Position numbers and translations under genes: made by a program
Virus record (IMG/VR): IMGVR_UViG_3300027687_000055
Location: 1 to 28,139 of that record
Strand: one strand, 5' to 3'
DNA length: 28,139 nt
From: a virus
The notes under the pieces: generated by a model
Databases searched by the model: none
Told to the model about the DNA's origin: nothing
The model's input: the letters and a program-made list of their open reading frames with translations, nothing else
Part shown: one piece after another, positions 6,699 through 23,470 of the stretch
How the letters are laid out: every line of letters begins with the position of its first letter
How positions within the stretch are numbered: position 1 is the first letter of the stretch

Positions 6699-7112
6699 AT
6701 GAGTAAAGATTGGACACAAGACATTCATGAAATGCATAATCACTATGGCATTCATGAGGCAATGAAAAAACTAAGTAACCAAGAGCTAAAGGCTTTTCTG
6801 CAGTTTCGTGTTAATTTCTTAAAAGAGGAATTAACAGAATTGCAAGAAGCAACTAAGACTGGTATACCAATAGACGCGGAGGAAACAGTTGATGCACTCG
6901 TTGATTTATGTGTTGTAGCAATTGGCACTTTGGATCTATTTGATGTAGATGGGCATAAAGCGTGGAACGAAGTTCTATCAGCTAATATGTTAAAAATGGT
7001 AGGAGTTAAAGAAACACGGCCTAACCCTTATGGGTTACCAGACTTGATCAAGCCAGATGGTTGGCAGTCGCCAAATCACAAAGGAAATCACGGAAACATT
7101 AGTGGAATATAA
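6699..7112 (+). CDS. MazG-like nucleotide pyrophosphohydrolase
   Basis: 137 aa. An N-terminal segment DWTQDIHEMHNHYGIHEA, then a helix with the metal-binding acidic pattern EELTELQE, then AEETVDALVDLCVVAIGTL giving the second acidic pair, and a C-terminal PNPYGLPDLIKPDGWQ with a Gly/His-rich tail. This is the all-alpha NTP-PPase (MazG) arrangement; members split NTPs or dNTPs to NMP plus PPi. In a phage that appears to make hydroxymethyl-dCMP, one candidate substrate is dCTP, doing the job of T4 gp56, which is not seen in this window; the sequence does not resemble gp56, so this is inference. The gene heads the modification block and overlaps the next gene. Confidence 0.85.
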   Translation: MSKDWTQDIHEMHNHYGIHEAMKKLSNQELKAFLQFRVNFLKEELTELQEATKTGIPIDAEETVDALVDLCVVAIGTLDLFDVDGHKAWNEVLSANMLKMVGVKETRPNPYGLPDLIKPDGWQSPNHKGNHGNISGI

Positions 7113-8548: not shown

Positions 8549-9232
8549 ATGTTACAGACAGTAAAAGACATACGAAATCTGTTTAAATCAAAATGCATAA
8601 ACGATCTTTATGTTACAGATAAAACAGGTGTAAAAACTATAGAAATAGTTAACGCTTCTTTTGAAGCAGATGAACCCACCATCTTTGGTAAACCTAATCA
8701 ACACTATATCAAGCGCGAACTAGATTGGTATCTATCTGAATCTCTTAACGTAAACGATATTGAAGGTGATGTTCCTAAAATTTGGCAAATGATATCCGAT
8801 AAAGGTGGTAAGATTAATTCTAACTATGGTTACCTTACGCTTAGTTCTAAGAATCATAATCAGTATCAGAATTGTGTAATGGAACTTCGTAAAAATCCTG
8901 ACTCACGCCGTGCAGTTATGGTTTACACCCGTCCAACAATTTGGAACGAATACGATGAAAACGGCATGTCTGACTTTATTTGCACTAATGCAGTTCAATA
9001 CATGATCCGCGACAACAAACTCGAAGTAGTTGTTCAAATGCGTAGTAACGATGTAGTTTTTGGTTATCGCAACGATTTTGCTTGGCAAAAGTACATGGCT
9101 GATATGGTGTGTCACGAACTGAAAGTAGATCTTGGTAAAATCTATTGGAATGTTGGTTCACTGCACGTATACGAAAGACACTTCAATTTAATTAAAAGCA
9201 ATCATGAAATACAAGACGAAAAGAATGGATAA
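8549..9232 (+). CDS. 42: gp42 dCMP hydroxymethylase
   Basis: 227 aa (T4: 246). The fold family is thymidylate synthase, but residues follow T4 gp42: VTDKTGVKTIEIVNASFEADEP, RELDWY with E57, PDSRRAVMVYTRP, DFICTNAVQYMIRD with catalytic C145, and QMRSNDVVFGYRNDFAWQKY. At the position where thymidylate synthases have the uracil-specific Asn, this protein has Asp176 (T4 Asp179), the residue that switches specificity to dCMP. The enzyme transfers the methylene of methylene-tetrahydrofolate to dCMP to give 5-hydroxymethyl-dCMP. It has its own promoter and is followed by NMAD1-like, oxygenase-like, deaminase and AGT genes. An automatic label of thymidylate synthase would be misleading. Confidence 0.93.
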   Translation: MLQTVKDIRNLFKSKCINDLYVTDKTGVKTIEIVNASFEADEPTIFGKPNQHYIKRELDWYLSESLNVNDIEGDVPKIWQMISDKGGKINSNYGYLTLSSKNHNQYQNCVMELRKNPDSRRAVMVYTRPTIWNEYDENGMSDFICTNAVQYMIRDNKLEVVVQMRSNDVVFGYRNDFAWQKYMADMVCHELKVDLGKIYWNVGSLHVYERHFNLIKSNHEIQDEKNG

Positions 9233-9569
9233 AGAATCAATTAAAATTATTAATGAAGCAATAGCTTTGCAATTGCGCAAATCAGACGATTACCAAAACA
9301 AAGAATCGTGGATCAAACAGGCAGATTACTACCCACGCGGTGTTCTTACTATATTAGACATTGTTTACGCTAAAGTTTTACGAATGTATTCTGTAGTTGA
9401 AGCAATGGAAAAAGATCCTAACTACGAACAAAACTTTGAATCAATTGAAGATTCTTGTAAAGACTTAATTAATTATGCATCCTTTATTGGCGCTTATACC
9501 CGCGGCGGCGTCGAAGGCCAAAAGCCTAACAAAGATTTTTTAAACCGAGAAAAAGCTAATGAGTACTAA
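9225..9569 (+). CDS. NMAD1-like (nucleotide modification associated) protein
   Basis: 114 aa from ATG 9225, which overlaps the gene 42 stop by 8 nt; an ATG at 9204 would overlap by 29 nt. The segment YYPRGVLTILDIVYAKVLRM, then ESIEDSCKDLINYASFIGAY and RGGVEGQKPN, resembles the DUF1599 / Nucleotide Modification Associated Domain 1 family, a helical family predicted from gene neighbourhoods to work with base-modifying enzymes. The Asp/Glu pattern in the helices (ESIEDSCKDL) is MazG-like, so nucleotide binding is plausible. Direct coupling to gene 42 fits a role in modified-nucleotide metabolism. The family call is moderate and the biochemical role unknown. Confidence 0.6.
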   Translation: MDKESIKIINEAIALQLRKSDDYQNKESWIKQADYYPRGVLTILDIVYAKVLRMYSVVEAMEKDPNYEQNFESIEDSCKDLINYASFIGAYTRGGVEGQKPNKDFLNREKANEY

Positions 9570-10194
9570 TTATAAAACAATAGAACCATTCAAACCTATA
9601 CGCTTCTATCAGTTCGATAGCGATGCTAGTAAGGCAGAGTATTTTGAAATATGTGATTGGTTGACGCGCCACAGATATCTTGAAAAAGACGACCAAGGTA
9701 TGTTAACCGATTATCATACACAAGAGCCAGAGTTTGATACAGATGATAACCTAAAAAGATGTGAGATATGGCATAAGTTTGTAATAAAACATATGGGAAC
9801 TAATTTAGACCAATGGGCTAAAGACCAAGGTGCAAAGGATTTATTTTTAGAAAATATATGGACTCAACAAACCTCCAAGCAGGCATACCATGGATTACAT
9901 AATCATGGCTCTTGGGAAATTGGCGCCAACTGGTCTTTCGTATGGTATATTGAATGTGATCCTAAAGTGCACGAACCAACTAGATATTGTACTTATCCAA
10001 ATGCAGAGGAAGAATATAAAAATGATATTAAAGAAGGTAGATTTATTCTTTGGCCTTCTGACTTATTACATACCCAATTACCAAGCTTTGTAGAAAAAAG
10101 AAGGTGTATTCTTTCAGGCAATCTTCACCTAATAGGATTAGAAGATAACGTTAGCAGGGTGATGAATTTAAGAGATACATTTAATGGGCAATAA
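9559..10194 (+). CDS. 2OG-Fe(II) oxygenase-like protein
   Basis: 211 aa. The C-terminal half has the layout of phage 2-oxoglutarate/Fe(II) oxygenases: IWTQQTSKQAYHGLHNHGSW (H111, H114, H116 as candidate first metal ligands), WSFVWYIECDP as a core strand, then EGRFILWPSDLLHTQLP with H171 as the distal ligand, and KRRCILSGNL with R181/R182 as the likely 2OG-carboxylate anchor. The N-terminal 90 residues are not recognised. The second metal ligand (Asp/Glu) is not obvious, so activity is uncertain. It sits between gene 42 and cd with 11-nt overlaps on both sides, which raises the possibility that it acts on nucleotides or DNA; protein hydroxylation is an equally good alternative. Confidence 0.6.
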   Translation: MSTNYKTIEPFKPIRFYQFDSDASKAEYFEICDWLTRHRYLEKDDQGMLTDYHTQEPEFDTDDNLKRCEIWHKFVIKHMGTNLDQWAKDQGAKDLFLENIWTQQTSKQAYHGLHNHGSWEIGANWSFVWYIECDPKVHEPTRYCTYPNAEEEYKNDIKEGRFILWPSDLLHTQLPSFVEKRRCILSGNLHLIGLEDNVSRVMNLRDTFNGQ

Positions 10195-10618
10195 GTGGCA
10201 TAAACGATATATCGATCTTGCTCGCGATATTGCGCAATGGTCGAAAGATCCTTCAACGTCTTGCGGAGCAATCTTCGTAGGAACTTCAGGACAAATTTTA
10301 TCTCAAGGATATAACGGCTTCCCTAGAGGTATCGATGACGACCCGTTGGATTACGACGATAGAGAAACTAAATACGAAAAGATAGTCCATGCAGAAATGA
10401 ATGGAATCTATAACGCTTCTAGAACAGGCGTTTCGTTAGAAGGTTCTACGTGCTATGTTCATGGATTGCCTTGCTGCCACGAATGCTCAAAAGCTTTAAT
10501 TCAAGTTGGTGTGAAAGAAGTGGTGATGCATAAATCTGCGGATCCGCGATGGAGCAAATCGTGCACACTCGCTAAGAATCTTTTTGACGAAGCTGGCATA
10601 AAAATTACTTACTTATAA
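10184..10618 (+). CDS. cd: dCMP deaminase
   Basis: 144 aa. Cytidine/deoxycytidylate deaminase zinc motif: VHAEMN with H69 and the proton-shuttle E71, and PCCHECSKALI with the C98/C101 pair. The N-terminus has RYIDLARDIAQWSKDPSTSCGAIFV and GYNGFPRGIDDDP, typical of dCMP deaminases including T4 Cd (193 aa; this one is shorter). It converts dCMP to dUMP for dTTP synthesis and so competes with gp42 for dCMP; the T4 enzyme is tuned allosterically by dCTP/dTTP. Its start overlaps the oxygenase-like gene. No thymidylate synthase is seen in the window, so dUMP would be used by a host enzyme or by a gene outside it. Confidence 0.94.
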   Translation: MGNKWHKRYIDLARDIAQWSKDPSTSCGAIFVGTSGQILSQGYNGFPRGIDDDPLDYDDRETKYEKIVHAEMNGIYNASRTGVSLEGSTCYVHGLPCCHECSKALIQVGVKEVVMHKSADPRWSKSCTLAKNLFDEAGIKITYL

Positions 10619-10982: not shown

Positions 10983-12188
10983 ATGAAAAGGATAGCGATT
11001 ATCATGGGCCGAGGAATTGAAGGTTGCGGCGTAACAAAATTTACAATAGAGCAATGTAAATTCTATGAAAAACACGGGTATTCTTATAGTGTGTACGCAT
11101 CTAAAGATAAATCTTGGACACGAAAGAATGCACACAAAACTGACAACATCCATCAGCTAAAATTTGCTAAAGACGAAGAAGTGAATAGCATGATAGAAGA
11201 AGTGAATAAAGCAGATATTGCTATTATTAACTCTTTACCTGCAATGAGTTTAAAGGAAGAAGCGATTGAAAACTTTAAACGGATGTTAAGTGAAATAAAA
11301 ATACCAGTAGCGTTGATTCAGCATGACCACGCTATGCAATCTATTCGCCGTAATGGTGCGTTAGATGAAGCTATTCAAAAAGCTAATATTATATTTGTAC
11401 ATTCAACAACCAACGACTTTGCAAAGTACGCTGGTAATTTAGTTGGACCAAAGGTAGATTTGTTTGGTGCTGAAGAAGGAACGCCCATTGTAGCATTTCA
11501 GCCAGGAATGTATTTCGATGAGATAAAAGAAAAATATTGGAAAAACGGTTGTGATGATGAGCTACACCATAAGTGGATTGGTAGAACTACGTCATGGAAA
11601 GGTTATCAAGAAATGTTTAAATTTCATAATGGTTATTTAATGCCAAATGAAATGCTTACTACGTATGAAGGCATCGAACGTTCGCCTGCTTTCTTAGGTT
11701 TTAGAGAGCTATCTGAATTTGAAAATTTGCTTGCAGAAGACCCTAATGAATACGATTTGTCTGAATCTTATGGATCAAATGTTCAGGTATTTGGTCCATA
11801 CATTCAAGAAGAAATGCTTGAGAGAATGTCAAAGGTGGGCTTTGGCTATCAACTTTCTCGTATGAAAGAACACTTTATTCAACGATCAGTTGAGTATACG
11901 CACTGCGAAGTAGTATGCACTGGTACAATTCCTGTCTTTAATAAAAAGTACGGTGATGCTTGCACCCACCGTCACTATGGAAAAAAGTTTACTGATTGTG
12001 AAAACTCAGGAACAATCTGGTTTGATGAAAATAATTTTGATGAAACATTAAACCAAATGCTAGATCTTCGAGAGTCACCTGAAAAAAGAAATGAAATGAG
12101 GAATCAGGCCTACGAATTTTATAAACTACACCAAGATGCAGACTATACGTTTGCTGAAATAATGAAAAACATAGAAAACAAAATATGA
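10983..12188 (+). CDS. agt: DNA alpha-glucosyltransferase (T4 AGT-like)
   Basis: 401 aa, against 400 aa for T4 AGT, with the same block order: MGRGIEGCGVTKFTIEQ at the N-terminus (8-24), ASKDKSWTR, AIINSLPAMS, LIQHDHAMQSIRRN (111-124), WIGRTTSWKGYQEMFKFH (198-215), EGIERSPAF, EEMLERMSKVGFGYQLS (276-292), RSVEYTHCE with CTGTIPVF (301-319), and SGTIWFDENNFD. T4 AGT is a GT-B enzyme that moves glucose from UDP-glucose to 5-hydroxymethylcytosine in DNA with alpha linkage, shielding the DNA from restriction and from the phage's own cytosine-specific nucleases. A good SD (GGAAGG, spacing 7) precedes the ATG. No beta-glucosyltransferase is present here. With gene 42 upstream, the phage DNA is probably glucosylated hmC. 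Confidence 0.93.
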   Translation: MKRIAIIMGRGIEGCGVTKFTIEQCKFYEKHGYSYSVYASKDKSWTRKNAHKTDNIHQLKFAKDEEVNSMIEEVNKADIAIINSLPAMSLKEEAIENFKRMLSEIKIPVALIQHDHAMQSIRRNGALDEAIQKANIIFVHSTTNDFAKYAGNLVGPKVDLFGAEEGTPIVAFQPGMYFDEIKEKYWKNGCDDELHHKWIGRTTSWKGYQEMFKFHNGYLMPNEMLTTYEGIERSPAFLGFRELSEFENLLAEDPNEYDLSESYGSNVQVFGPYIQEEMLERMSKVGFGYQLSRMKEHFIQRSVEYTHCEVVCTGTIPVFNKKYGDACTHRHYGKKFTDCENSGTIWFDENNFDETLNQMLDLRESPEKRNEMRNQAYEFYKLHQDADYTFAEIMKNIENKI

Positions 12189-12406
12189 GTGCACACCTAA
12201 AAGGAATATTGAAAAAACTAGAAGGTCAACGAGACATCGAACTCGCTGATTTAAATACTTACTTGACAAACCAAGTAGCAATAGGCGAACACCCAGACAT
12301 TGGTGTTGAAATCGAACTAAAGATAGAAAAAGTCGACGCGTTAGATTCTAAAATAGAAACTATACAAAAATATTTTAACGATAGCCAAATGGACCTATTA
12401 GTATGA
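12185..12406 (+). CDS. Small conserved phage protein (73 aa)
   Basis: A helical small protein: GILKKLEGQRDIELADLNTY, then IGEHPDIGVEIELKIEKVD and LDSKIETIQKYFND. The heptad-like spacing suggests a coiled coil. I recall similar short proteins in marine T4-like phages but know no function. Start and stop overlap the neighbouring genes by 4 nt each (ATGA), linking agt to the methyltransferase-like gene in a single translational chain. Confidence 0.65.
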   Translation: MSAHLKGILKKLEGQRDIELADLNTYLTNQVAIGEHPDIGVEIELKIEKVDALDSKIETIQKYFNDSQMDLLV

Positions 12407-13593
12407 GTTATAGTTATGCATCAATAGTTCCTCTTATTGGAGGTGAAACAATCGCAATGGAGAATGTTTTTGGTAAAAGACCTAAGTACATTTTATCATA
12501 TACACCATTCGCAGCGAATGATTCACAGATGTTAGAACACTACAAAAACGAAGTACCATACCATGTCATCGACGAAGGTAGTGGTAGAACCGATTATGTT
12601 GATGTTGTGAATGCGGTGTGTCCATGTGCTGGTCTATCTTCGCTAAGTCCATCATCCTCTACAGACAACAAAGCAAATGATTGGATGGTTGAATCAGCAA
12701 AATATGTTTTAGGATCTGTAAAGCCTAAAGTCCTTTGGGGAGAAAACGCTCCAAGGCTTGCATCTAAAATGGGTGCACCTATTGTTGAAAAGCTAAGAAA
12801 GATCGCTAAAGAAAACGGCTATACCATGTCGTTATATAAGACAAAATCTAAATTGCACGGACTAAGTCAAACCCGCGATAGAGCATTCTATTTCTTTTGG
12901 CAAGGTAATCGTATTCCTCATATGCAGTTTTTCAAAAGACCTCACGAAAAGATTGAAGATACTATTCGGAATGCTTTTGTTTCTGCAGATGATCCAATGA
13001 ACGAGCTTACGAATAAAAATAAACCTTCAGATAATCCTTTCTATAAATACGTATTGGAAGAACTTGAAGGCGGAATTACGCACAAACAATTTCAAGAAAA
13101 GATCGAAAGGACAACGAATCCACTCGATTATTTAGAAAACCGCGGTATTGAATATGACGAAGTTTCTGAATGGATGGCACTGAACGGGTTTGACAAACAA
13201 GCTACACGCTGTTTAGAGATTCATAAGAAACTCAAATCTGGCGGTAACATCATGAGAAAAACTACAGAAATTCCAAAGGATTACATTGGTGCTTTTGTAG
13301 GACATATGCCTACATGTTTAACACACCCAGATGAAGATCGGTATCTTACAATTCGCGAATGCTTAGCAATTATGAAAATGCCTTCTGATTTTCAGCTTCA
13401 AGGAGGAAGAAAAAACCTAAATATGATATGTCAAAACGTGCCAGTAACTACTGCAGAAGACATGGCAAAGTCCATTCTAGACTGGCTTGGAGGCAATCTA
13501 GACACCAGAGAGGCTGATTTTGCAGTGTTTGACAATAAGGCATATACCGTAGATTATGAAGAGGCAGCACAGACCATTGAATCGTTCATTTAA
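12403..13593 (+). CDS. Dcm-like DNA cytosine C5-methyltransferase
   Basis: 396 aa. C5-methyltransferase motifs in order: I, VPLIGGETIAMENVFG (9-24) for AdoMet binding; IV, CPCAGLSSLSP with catalytic C75; VI, WGENAP with E114; VIII, QTRDRAFYF (156-164); a variable region (about 170-300) with no recognised target motif; then LTIRECLAIMKMP and NVPVTTAEDMAKSIL as IX/X. Motif IV has PCAG instead of PCQG. The nucleophile and Glu are kept, so catalysis on cytosine C5 is plausible. In a phage whose cytosines are apparently already substituted at C5, the substrate is unclear: host DNA, leftover cytosines, or an altered reaction. It overlaps its upstream neighbour and is followed by the uvsX promoter. 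Confidence 0.82.
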   Translation: MSYSYASIVPLIGGETIAMENVFGKRPKYILSYTPFAANDSQMLEHYKNEVPYHVIDEGSGRTDYVDVVNAVCPCAGLSSLSPSSSTDNKANDWMVESAKYVLGSVKPKVLWGENAPRLASKMGAPIVEKLRKIAKENGYTMSLYKTKSKLHGLSQTRDRAFYFFWQGNRIPHMQFFKRPHEKIEDTIRNAFVSADDPMNELTNKNKPSDNPFYKYVLEELEGGITHKQFQEKIERTTNPLDYLENRGIEYDEVSEWMALNGFDKQATRCLEIHKKLKSGGNIMRKTTEIPKDYIGAFVGHMPTCLTHPDEDRYLTIRECLAIMKMPSDFQLQGGRKNLNMICQNVPVTTAEDMAKSILDWLGGNLDTREADFAVFDNKAYTVDYEEAAQTIESFI

Positions 13594-22192: not shown

Positions 22193-23470
22193 ATGAAGTC
22201 ATTTAAACAATTTAACGATGCAAAGGTTTCAGAAGCTGTTTTTACGTTTGGAAGATTTAATCCACCTACTATAGGGCATGGTAAACTTCTATCAAAAGTC
22301 GCTAAAGTCGCTAAAGGTAGTAACTATAGAATTTACGCTTCGCAAAGCAACGACAAAGATAAAAACCCATTAGAGTATCGCGAAAAAATAAAAGTAATGC
22401 GTAAGATGTTTCCTAATCATGGTAGAAACATCATTGAAGATATAAAAGCAAAGACAGTCTTTCACATTGCTACTGCTCTTTACGATCAGGGATTTACAAA
22501 AATCAAAATGGTTGTAGGATCTGATCGGGTATCTGAATTTCAAAAGTTGCTTAATAAGTACAATGACGTAAAAGGTAAACACGGATTTTATAATTTTGTA
22601 GATGGTATAGAAGTTATATCTGCAGGTGAAAGAGATCCAGACGCTGAAGGTGTTAAAGGAATGAGTGCATCTAAAATGCGCAAAGCGGCCGAAGAAGGAG
22701 ATTTTAAATCGTTTAGCTTAGGATTAACTAAAGCGTATGGAGAAGATATGACGCTGTTTAATCTTATTCGTAAAAGAATGGGTCTGAAAGAAAAAACAAG
22801 TTTTAGAGAACACATTCAATTGCCACCTCTATCCGATAAAAGGGAAAGGTACATAGCTGAAGAAATATTTAATATAGGTGATACTGCGTTTTTCAATAAT
22901 CAACCCGTGGTTATTAAACATAGAAAGTCTAACTTTGTTATTGGCGAAGATAGCAAAAAGTATTTCATTCATTCACTTGCGATCACGTCACTTGAAGAAA
23001 AGTTAAATCCTACTTACGGAAAAGGTCTTTCGAAATCGACTAAATCGAAACGACAAGCACAGTTTAATAAGCAAGCTAAATTAGACGATGACGATCCAAA
23101 GGCGTACAATCCAGCGCCAGGTGACGCAAGAGCGAAGACTAAAGTTTCGAAACATACCCTCGCTTATCGTAAAAAGTTTGGAGAGTTTGTAGAAATAGGT
23201 AAGGCGGCCGCCGATCATAAAAAAGATACACCTGGCCAAATTGACGAAAAGCAAATTGCTGGATTGAAAAAGAAAGCAGAAAAATCTGGTATAGCTTATG
23301 GCATATTAAAGCAAGTATTTGACCGCGGAATGGCTGCTTGGAAAACTGGTCACCGCCCAGGAGCAACACCTCACCAATGGGCATTTGCTAGAGTTAATTC
23401 CTTTATTACTAAAAGTAAAGGTACATGGGGTGGAGCAGACAAAGACTTAGCAGCAAAGGTCAGAGGATGA
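22193..23470 (+). CDS. NMN adenylyltransferase-like nucleotidyltransferase with C-terminal phage domain
   Basis: 425 aa. Leader MKSFKQFNDAKVSE, then directly AVFTFGRFNPPTIGHGKLL, the HxGH-type nucleotidyltransferase motif, followed by KMVVGSDRV and GMSASKMRKAAEEGDF, which matches the ISSTxxR-like second motif. Residues up to about 200 thus form an NMNAT/cytidylyltransferase-type domain transferring a nucleotidyl group, possibly ATP to NMN to form NAD. A middle Lys-rich linker includes DDPKAYNPAPGDARAKTK. The C-terminal domain (GLKKKAEKSGIAYGILKQVF, GMAAWKTGHRPGATPHQWA, ARVNSF, KGTWGGAD) is a recurrent phage domain (DUF5824-like). VSE/A just before the catalytic strand is a plausible cut site. 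Nucleotide specificity is not known. Confidence 0.83.
   Translation: MKSFKQFNDAKVSEAVFTFGRFNPPTIGHGKLLSKVAKVAKGSNYRIYASQSNDKDKNPLEYREKIKVMRKMFPNHGRNIIEDIKAKTVFHIATALYDQGFTKIKMVVGSDRVSEFQKLLNKYNDVKGKHGFYNFVDGIEVISAGERDPDAEGVKGMSASKMRKAAEEGDFKSFSLGLTKAYGEDMTLFNLIRKRMGLKEKTSFREHIQLPPLSDKRERYIAEEIFNIGDTAFFNNQPVVIKHRKSNFVIGEDSKKYFIHSLAITSLEEKLNPTYGKGLSKSTKSKRQAQFNKQAKLDDDDPKAYNPAPGDARAKTKVSKHTLAYRKKFGEFVEIGKAAADHKKDTPGQIDEKQIAGLKKKAEKSGIAYGILKQVFDRGMAAWKTGHRPGATPHQWAFARVNSFITKSKGTWGGADKDLAAKVRG

Follow-up and report, generated by a model that had tools for sequence, protein, structure and literature searches.

A C5-methyltransferase-like phage gene family with an altered cofactor site in the company of cytosine-type thymidylate-synthase-family enzymes

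A methyltransferase-like gene and its gene cluster

The window analysed here, i.e., the whole stretch of 28,139 nucleotides, is a 28-kb fragment of a viral genome, and the record from which it comes ends where the window ends. The subject of this study is a genuine ORF of 396 codons, which shares a cluster with the other genes listed in Table 1.

Table 1. Genes of the cluster and motifs of the methyltransferase-like protein, with their positions in the window
Feature	Position	Strand	Basis or remark
PRA-PH/MazG-like nucleotide pyrophosphohydrolase	6699..7112	+	candidate dCTP remover
dCMP hydroxymethylase, T4 gp42-like, cytosine-marking Asp	8549..9232	+	alignment to T4 gp42
Small ORF	9204..9569	+	PHROG 1485 (function unknown), also 18404 'hydrolase'
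2OG-Fe(II) oxygenase-like ORF	9559..10194	+	PHROG 81; Pfam under cut-off; few relatives have it
dCMP deaminase	10184..10618	+	Pfam, PHROG
DNA alpha-glucosyltransferase (agt), T4-like	10983..12188	+	PF11440, 1xv5
73-aa ORF	12185..12406	+	PHROG 1811, function unknown; ATGA overlaps with agt and methyltransferase-like gene
C5-methyltransferase-like gene, 396 aa	12403..13593	+	PF00145, PHROG, model
Variant motif I, P10-L-I-G-G14 in place of FxGxG	12430..12444	+	MAFFT, profile alignment, 166-locus count
Motif II positions, S32-Y33	12496..12501	+	aligned to the Glu-aromatic pair holding the AdoMet nucleoside; alignment less certain
Motif IV, C73-P-C75-A-G-L78, predicted catalytic Cys75	12619..12636	+	alignments
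Motif VI, G113-E114-N-A-P117	12739..12753	+	alignments
Motif VIII, Q156-x-R158-x-R160	12868..12882	+	alignments
Central target-recognition region, residues 183-300	12949..13302	+	helical in model
Variant motif X, C343-Q-N-V-P347	13429..13443	+	Q344 aligned to HhaI N304 and CmoX R350

The 396-aa product matches the Pfam family PF00145 (E 1e-18; 68.3 bits against a cut-off of 22) and PHROG 116, 'DNA methyltransferase' (E 3e-21), and it scores 38.4 bits with the NCBIfam model dcm, under that model's cut-off of 100.65. An AlphaFold2 model built from 28 sequences has a pLDDT of 88; it superposes on the HhaI complex 2uz4 with a Z score of 21.7 and an rmsd of 3.5 Å over 291 residues (model residues 1-364) and on CmoX (8yf3) with a Z score of 21.3, and its fold matches that of AdoHcy-bound HhaI. 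Judged by homology and modelled fold, the protein is a homologue of the C5-cytosine DNA methyltransferases (PF00145). The family to which it belongs is under purifying selection, with dN/dS of 0.042-0.088 in seven of nine pairs and dS saturated in the other two. What the sequence-only reading, an earlier annotation made from the nucleotide letters, had called an unfamiliar central target-recognition region has kept that character: modelled alone, residues 183-300 are mostly helical (pLDDT 75), and a PDB search with this model returned no match with an E below 3.9.

The same reading had described the gene as translationally chained to agt. The chain is there, in the form of two ATGA overlaps, and it runs only by way of the intervening 73-aa ORF, whose start (12185) overlaps the agt stop (12188) and whose stop (12406) overlaps the start of the methyltransferase-like gene (12403) by four bases.

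The hydroxymethylase product matches T4 gp42 (1b49) with E 4e-78 and carries Asp at the position of Asn177 of thymidylate synthase (TS), the window reading RNDFAWQKY where T4 has RNDYAWQKY; according to the available text of PMC8670742, Asp at this position means specificity for cytosine. The agt product matches PF11440 (E 7.5e-81) and 1xv5 (E 1.8e-89 over residues 3-392), and the cluster also contains T4-type replication genes. The presence of hydroxymethylcytosine (hmC) in the DNA of this phage is a well-supported prediction from the gp42-like and AGT genes. The premise that cytosine C5 should already be occupied stands as far as these genes are concerned, since they share one cluster, while the chemistry of the DNA itself is a prediction.

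Catalytic centre and cofactor site across the family

A tblastn search of 50,697 phage records (E 1e-5) returned eight matches, namely five cyanophage S-TIM records, Pseudoalteromonas phage XG4 and two of Bacillus phage G, and the family is known mostly from viral metagenome contigs. From a first viral-contig scan we kept 80 of 156 relatives; a second scan yielded at least 550 relatives among the 600 pattern matches listed, of which 80 were kept and 45 were new; further relatives were 8 near XG4 and 26 near S-TIM5. We label the lineages A (that of the window, a set of 125 loci), B (that of XG4) and C (that of S-TIM5). A tree of 28 chosen rows, in which bootstrap support is not fully settled, joins A, B and C in one clade (100/100) and places ten ordinary enzymes apart. 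Phage G stands next to this clade (100/99, on a branch flagged as long) and is the probable sister of the three lineages. A cellular origin was considered and rejected: the five loci found in a genome scan are all on MAG contigs, four with a hydroxymethylase and all five with uvsX, and are probably phage contigs. The MAG locus without hydroxymethylase (L220) has only 3.8 kb of upstream sequence.

The residues on which the earlier annotation had placed the chemistry, i.e., the nucleophile Cys75, Glu114 and motif VIII, are confirmed as constant features of the family. In a 23-row alignment of the three phage lineages, Cys75 (in CPCAG), Glu114 (in GENAP) and Gln156, Arg158 and Arg160 are invariant, and among 166 loci selected by homology alone and not by motif, Cys75 is found in all 162 that cover it and the other four residues in all 164 that cover them. 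This constancy bears on the suggestion that the protein binds without methylating. A non-catalytic DNA-binding protein, for example a site marker or a structural factor near uvsX, would fit the altered cofactor site described below and the location of uvsX, which usually adjoins the methyltransferase-like gene in lineage A. However, with all five of these residues kept wherever they are covered and with low dN/dS, we consider such a role very improbable.

The cofactor site, in contrast to the catalytic centre, is changed. The AdoMet motif I, FxGxG, is absent from the family, and PL(I/V)GG takes its place in all 159 of the 166 loci that cover it (of the remaining seven, six run off the end of their contig and L168 is disrupted at the N-terminus); position 9 is Val or Ile in 159 loci. 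Position 32 is Ser in 155 and Thr in 5 of 160 loci, position 33 is aromatic (Tyr, Trp or Phe) in 160 of 160, and Asn39 is present in 160. In motif X, Gln344 is found in 166 of 166 loci, preceded at position 343 by Cys or Ala, and is followed by Asn345 in 165 (Thr in L032) and by Pro347 in 166. As controls we used eleven ordinary phage C5-methyltransferases hand-picked from distant-match lists, those of phages Melnitz, Fnu1, phiD12, Dfl-JY23, a Christensenellales phage, an Oscillospiraceae phage, a Vibrio phage, RN05-S, Elbi, a Mycoplasma phage and phi3T. FxGxG is present in all eleven; the GN of motif X, likewise absent from the family, occurs in seven of the eleven and is consequently not universal among ordinary enzymes.

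A profile-profile alignment of the family with nine ordinary phage enzymes (probability 99.7, E 1.3e-25) pairs Val9 with the adenine-stacking Phe25, Leu11 with the motif-I Gly27 and Gln344 with CmoX Arg350. MAFFT agrees with this pairing and adds Ser32 at the Glu position and Tyr33 at that of the second aromatic, motif II being the least certain pairing because the profile alignment is gapped there. The Glu-aromatic pair of motif II to which S32-Y33 is aligned is E40-W41 in HhaI and E47-F48 in CmoX. Since the substitutions in motifs I, II and X are uniform across loci and the catalytic residues are kept, the AdoMet site, as read from the alignments, is rebuilt in a conserved manner rather than decayed, around an unchanged catalytic centre. 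The family may still bind AdoMet, given the aromatic residue at position 33, the two motif-I glycines and the fold resembling AdoHcy-bound HhaI.

In CmoX, the cytosine C5-carboxymethyltransferase of Synechococcus phage S-B43, carboxy-AdoMet is bound with Phe25 and Phe48 on the adenine, Glu47 on the ribose, Asp69, and Arg350 at the position of HhaI Asn304; the enzyme is part of a DNA hypermodification system, and its choice of donor depends on the motif-X residue Arg350 (available text of PMC12783734). The family could likewise place a group other than methyl on unmodified cytosine, with an AdoMet derivative or another compound as donor, and the uniform Gln at the very position that sets the donor in CmoX speaks for this reading. 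Against it, the carboxyl-binding Arg is missing, free dC should be scarce, and no CmoA-like gene in intact form turned up in the 28-kb window or in 15 records of the family or phage G, many of them incomplete, in which the one weak match (E 6.9e-4) has four stops; the control, RN05-S, was matched at 3.5e-34, itself under the curated cut-off. The carboxymethyl route, which would have to do without Arg and without CmoA, is disfavoured, and non-methyl transfer to plain cytosine in general appears improbable.

Company of cytosine-type thymidylate-synthase-family enzymes

Where lineage A loci extend at least 6.5 kb upstream, a gp42-like gene is present in 39 of 40 (in one of the 39, L128, it lies downstream of the methyltransferase-like gene); the corresponding counts are 16 of 22 with 3.5-6.5 kb upstream and 10 of 63 with less. 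The sole miss of the 40, L066, is a 14-kb fragment with 7.8 kb upstream and no hydroxymethylase, and the counterparts of its upstream genes in L057 and L062 lie downstream of the hydroxymethylase. The specificity site is Asp in all 63 of the 65 hydroxymethylase-positive lineage A loci in which it could be read, the other two being cut before the site.

Whole records were searched for 41 loci, comprising seven of lineage A, eight of lineage B plus XG4, and 24 of the 26 of lineage C plus S-TIM5 (two lineage C contigs shorter than 4.6 kb were omitted). PF00303 was matched in 33 of the 41 (6/7 in A, 6/9 in B and 21/25 in C). In the four lineage C misses (L150, L151, L157 and L167) the sequence preceding the methyltransferase-like gene is only 1.5-2.3 kb long, and the TS-family enzyme lies 2.4 kb from that gene in S-TIM5 and 3 kb in L154; the misses in lineage B are two contigs of 6.8 and 3.5 kb and a third that cuts the gene. 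All 30 TS-family specificity sites read in these records are Asp (21 in C, 5 in B and 4 in A), a count that leaves out the TS-family genes of S-TIM54, S-TIM61 and S-TIM66; XG4 has Asp as well. The type of partner differs, being gp42-like in A and B and a 285-aa type in C, where the S-TIM5 enzyme has thymidylate synthases as its best PDB matches (E 1.4e-31). Since the partner types differ between lineages, what is kept seems to be the function rather than one linked gene.

When the genes of 21 chosen neighbourhoods were grouped by single-linkage clustering, no group except the methyltransferase-like gene (21/21) and the TS family (20/21) was near-universal in the three lineages. A glutaredoxin-like group likewise spans A, B and C, at 9 of the 21 loci, and AGT is variable, with PF11440 matched in 7 of the 41 records, five of them above cut-off. 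Among the eleven hand-picked control records none has an Asp-type enzyme, and PF00303 is matched in one (phi3T), of the Asn type. A converse scan starting from the hydroxymethylase gave 11 loci, five with the methyltransferase-like gene and six without it; four of these six (L089, L090, L091 and L093) run through uvsX and gp41. Thus, where enough flank is available, the methyltransferase-like gene almost always has a cytosine-type TS-family enzyme in its company, the association is one-way only, and shared ancestry explains part of it, A, B and C being one clade. This near-constant company sharpens the paradox of a C5-methyltransferase-like gene in phages whose cytosine C5 would be occupied.

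One way out of the paradox is that the substrate of the enzyme during infection is the DNA or RNA of the host, methylated to take over the host or to mark or silence its genome. Host cytosines are free, and DNMT2-like C5 enzymes acting on RNA exist. Such an activity would, however, be expected also in plain-cytosine phages, whereas the family goes with Asp-type enzymes in the records examined, and we give this explanation a low probability.

Another way out is that phage cytosine is not completely replaced. No T4 gp1-like hm-dCMP kinase (DNMK) was found in 14 records, i.e., 13 of the family in lineages A, B and C plus phage G, many of them incomplete; twelve of the 14 were searched again at E up to 1, the T4 control being matched at 2.3e-108, and PF02223 occurs among the 14 in phage G only. 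Consequently, hmC need not replace C throughout and some dC may remain, with the qualification that another kinase may serve for gp1 and that the window genome is a 28-kb fragment. The main rival to the reading that we prefer builds on this remainder: an AdoMet-dependent 5mC methyltransferase with a divergent pocket would act on the residual dC of the phage DNA and shield it against host restriction or against dC-specific nucleases of the phage. The Pfam match, the fold and the catalytic motifs are those of 5mC enzymes, an aromatic residue for adenine stacking is kept, the kinase search makes a dC remainder plausible, and the need for the enzyme mainly in hmC phages would be accounted for. The conserved replacement of motifs I, II and X, on the other hand, is not called for by a residual-dC methylase, which we hold on balance to be unlikely.

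A TET-like route, in which the enzyme makes 5mC that is then oxidised and glucosylated, was set aside since the oxygenase is rare and the hydroxymethylase nearly constant. Oxygenase matches were found at L002 and L003 (100-percent copies) and weakly at L052 among the first 80 loci, and at L114 among the later 45.

Other genes were noted at these loci and elsewhere in the window. Homologues of the small ORF at 9204-9569 are often near the hydroxymethylase in relatives, including lineage B and loci without the methyltransferase-like gene. At 22193-23470 the window has an ORF that fuses a cytidylyltransferase-like domain to DUF5824. In some lineage A phages, a gene resembling inositol-3-phosphate synthase (TIGR03450 E 1.9e-60, below cut-off) lies with its neighbours just upstream of the methyltransferase-like gene at L066:3768-7780, and also in L057 and L062, where inositol-synthase-like genes downstream of the hydroxymethylase hint at an inositol-type hypermodification of hmC. 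L139 has a capsule-type HAD phosphatase-like gene near the methyltransferase-like gene (TIGR01689 E 6e-16, below cut-off); the combination of a HAD phosphatase-like gene with a gene that by eye resembles a cytidylyltransferase in this position at L139, L145, L045 and L123 (lineage B and some of A) suggests other decorations of hmC.

A proposed action on hydroxymethylcytosine and related systems

The reading that we prefer, at a probability of roughly 0.4, is that the 396-aa protein is an enzyme of the hmC pathway that works at the level of DNA, acting at C5 of hydroxymethylated cytosine, where the hydroxymethyl group would be exchanged, removed or replaced. We prefer an hmC-directed reaction because a methylase directed at the host or at dC should neither accompany Asp-type enzymes this consistently nor lose its AdoMet motifs and yet keep the catalytic ones. 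There is also a chemical precedent. M.MpeI, an AdoMet C5-methyltransferase, presumably strips hydroxymethyl from hmC slowly and then re-methylates the base, so that the C5-methyltransferase fold can probably act on hmC; published stripping of this kind by C5-methyltransferases is slow and in vitro (available text of PMC11347137). The option of another reaction at C5, raised by the sequence-only reading, has been strengthened by the rebuilt cofactor motifs and by this precedent, while the activity of the protein itself is a prediction.

In the proposed mechanism, the helical central domain would pick a short DNA site. A k-mer bias survey for such a target site gave nothing clear in lineages A, B and C against four hydroxymethylase loci without the methyltransferase-like gene. 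The target cytosine, which would already carry CH2OH since the hydroxymethylase acted on dCMP, would be flipped out, and Cys75 would attack C6 with the assistance of Glu114. The C5 substituent could then undergo exchange, leave as formaldehyde, or give way to a nucleophile bound in the remodelled cofactor pocket, and the reaction would perhaps precede glycosylation at that site.

A stronger and more tentative form of the hmC-directed reading is that the family represents the first natural enzyme of the C5-methyltransferase fold dedicated to hmC, with a Cys-Glu-Arg centre and no ordinary AdoMet chemistry, which strips, exchanges or replaces 5-hydroxymethyl at chosen sites. If this is true, hmC phages edit or build further on their own modified genome, and the family would give hmC genomes either sequence-specific editing or a new hypermodification step, and might serve as a tool in hmC chemistry. 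With an intact catalytic centre, a rebuilt cofactor pocket and cytosine hydroxymethylases in its company, this large family makes the question of an hmC enzyme directly testable. A search of open PMC full text, with subscription papers outside its scope, gave among the matches listed no paper that by its title or the start of its abstract deals with this family or with an hmC-dedicated phage C5-methyltransferase. The MetaGPA paper links TS-family enzymes to cytosine modification, and in its main text 'methyltransferase' is absent and 'methylase' appears once; section 3.4.7 of a jumbo-phage survey mentions cytosine methylases in general terms.

Compared with known systems, the 396-aa protein has the fold, motifs IV, VI and VIII and the motif order in common with the HhaI-type C5-methyltransferases (HhaI, HaeIII and M.MpeI). 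Unlike these, the family has PL(I/V)GG, a Ser or Thr aligned with the Glu that binds ribose, a motif X in which Gln replaces Asn, a helical central domain for which no PDB match was found, and the company of Asp-type TS-family enzymes. The hmC pathway of T4 is represented in the window cluster by homologues of both gp42 and agt; at a threshold of E 1e-5 the C5-methyltransferase-like protein had no match among T4 records, in which respect T4 differs from the window phage.

Phage G is nearer. Its gp301, annotated as a DNA cytosine methyltransferase, aligns with 76 percent of the query at 26 percent identity, and phage G is the best match in a viral structure library (E 2.2e-22, TM 0.74; next match 3.0e-14). 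It resembles the family in the lack of FxGxG, in the sequences CPCSGLS and ENAP, and in the Gln of its motif X (AQGVP); it departs from the family in a retained Glu at the position of motif II and in a Met for the motif VIII Gln at 156. As judged from these residues, phage G shares the rebuilt site only in part. It has two TS-family genes, one of the Asn and one of the Asp type; the latter (L216, at about 233.5 kb) lies about 13 kb from gp301, and its presence suggests a cytosine modification in phage G.

CmoX (8YF3) is likewise a phage homologue with a changed motif-X residue and a similar fold. Its relative in RN05-S has FAGGGG as motif I and GRMVP as motif X. A further CmoX-like gene is the 'hhaIM' of Methylophilales phage Melnitz (L207, 4010-5227; 8yf3 E 6.4e-76), which has GLMVA in place of the Arg motif X, with no CmoA match in the genome and a RimK-like ATP-grasp gene nearby, possibly for a different donor. 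According to the available text of PMC12783734, CmoX keeps Phe25, Glu47 and Phe48 and has Arg350, where the family has instead PL(I/V)GG and Gln344; a CmoA-like gene in intact form is absent from the family records searched, and the family goes with a cytosine hydroxymethylase.
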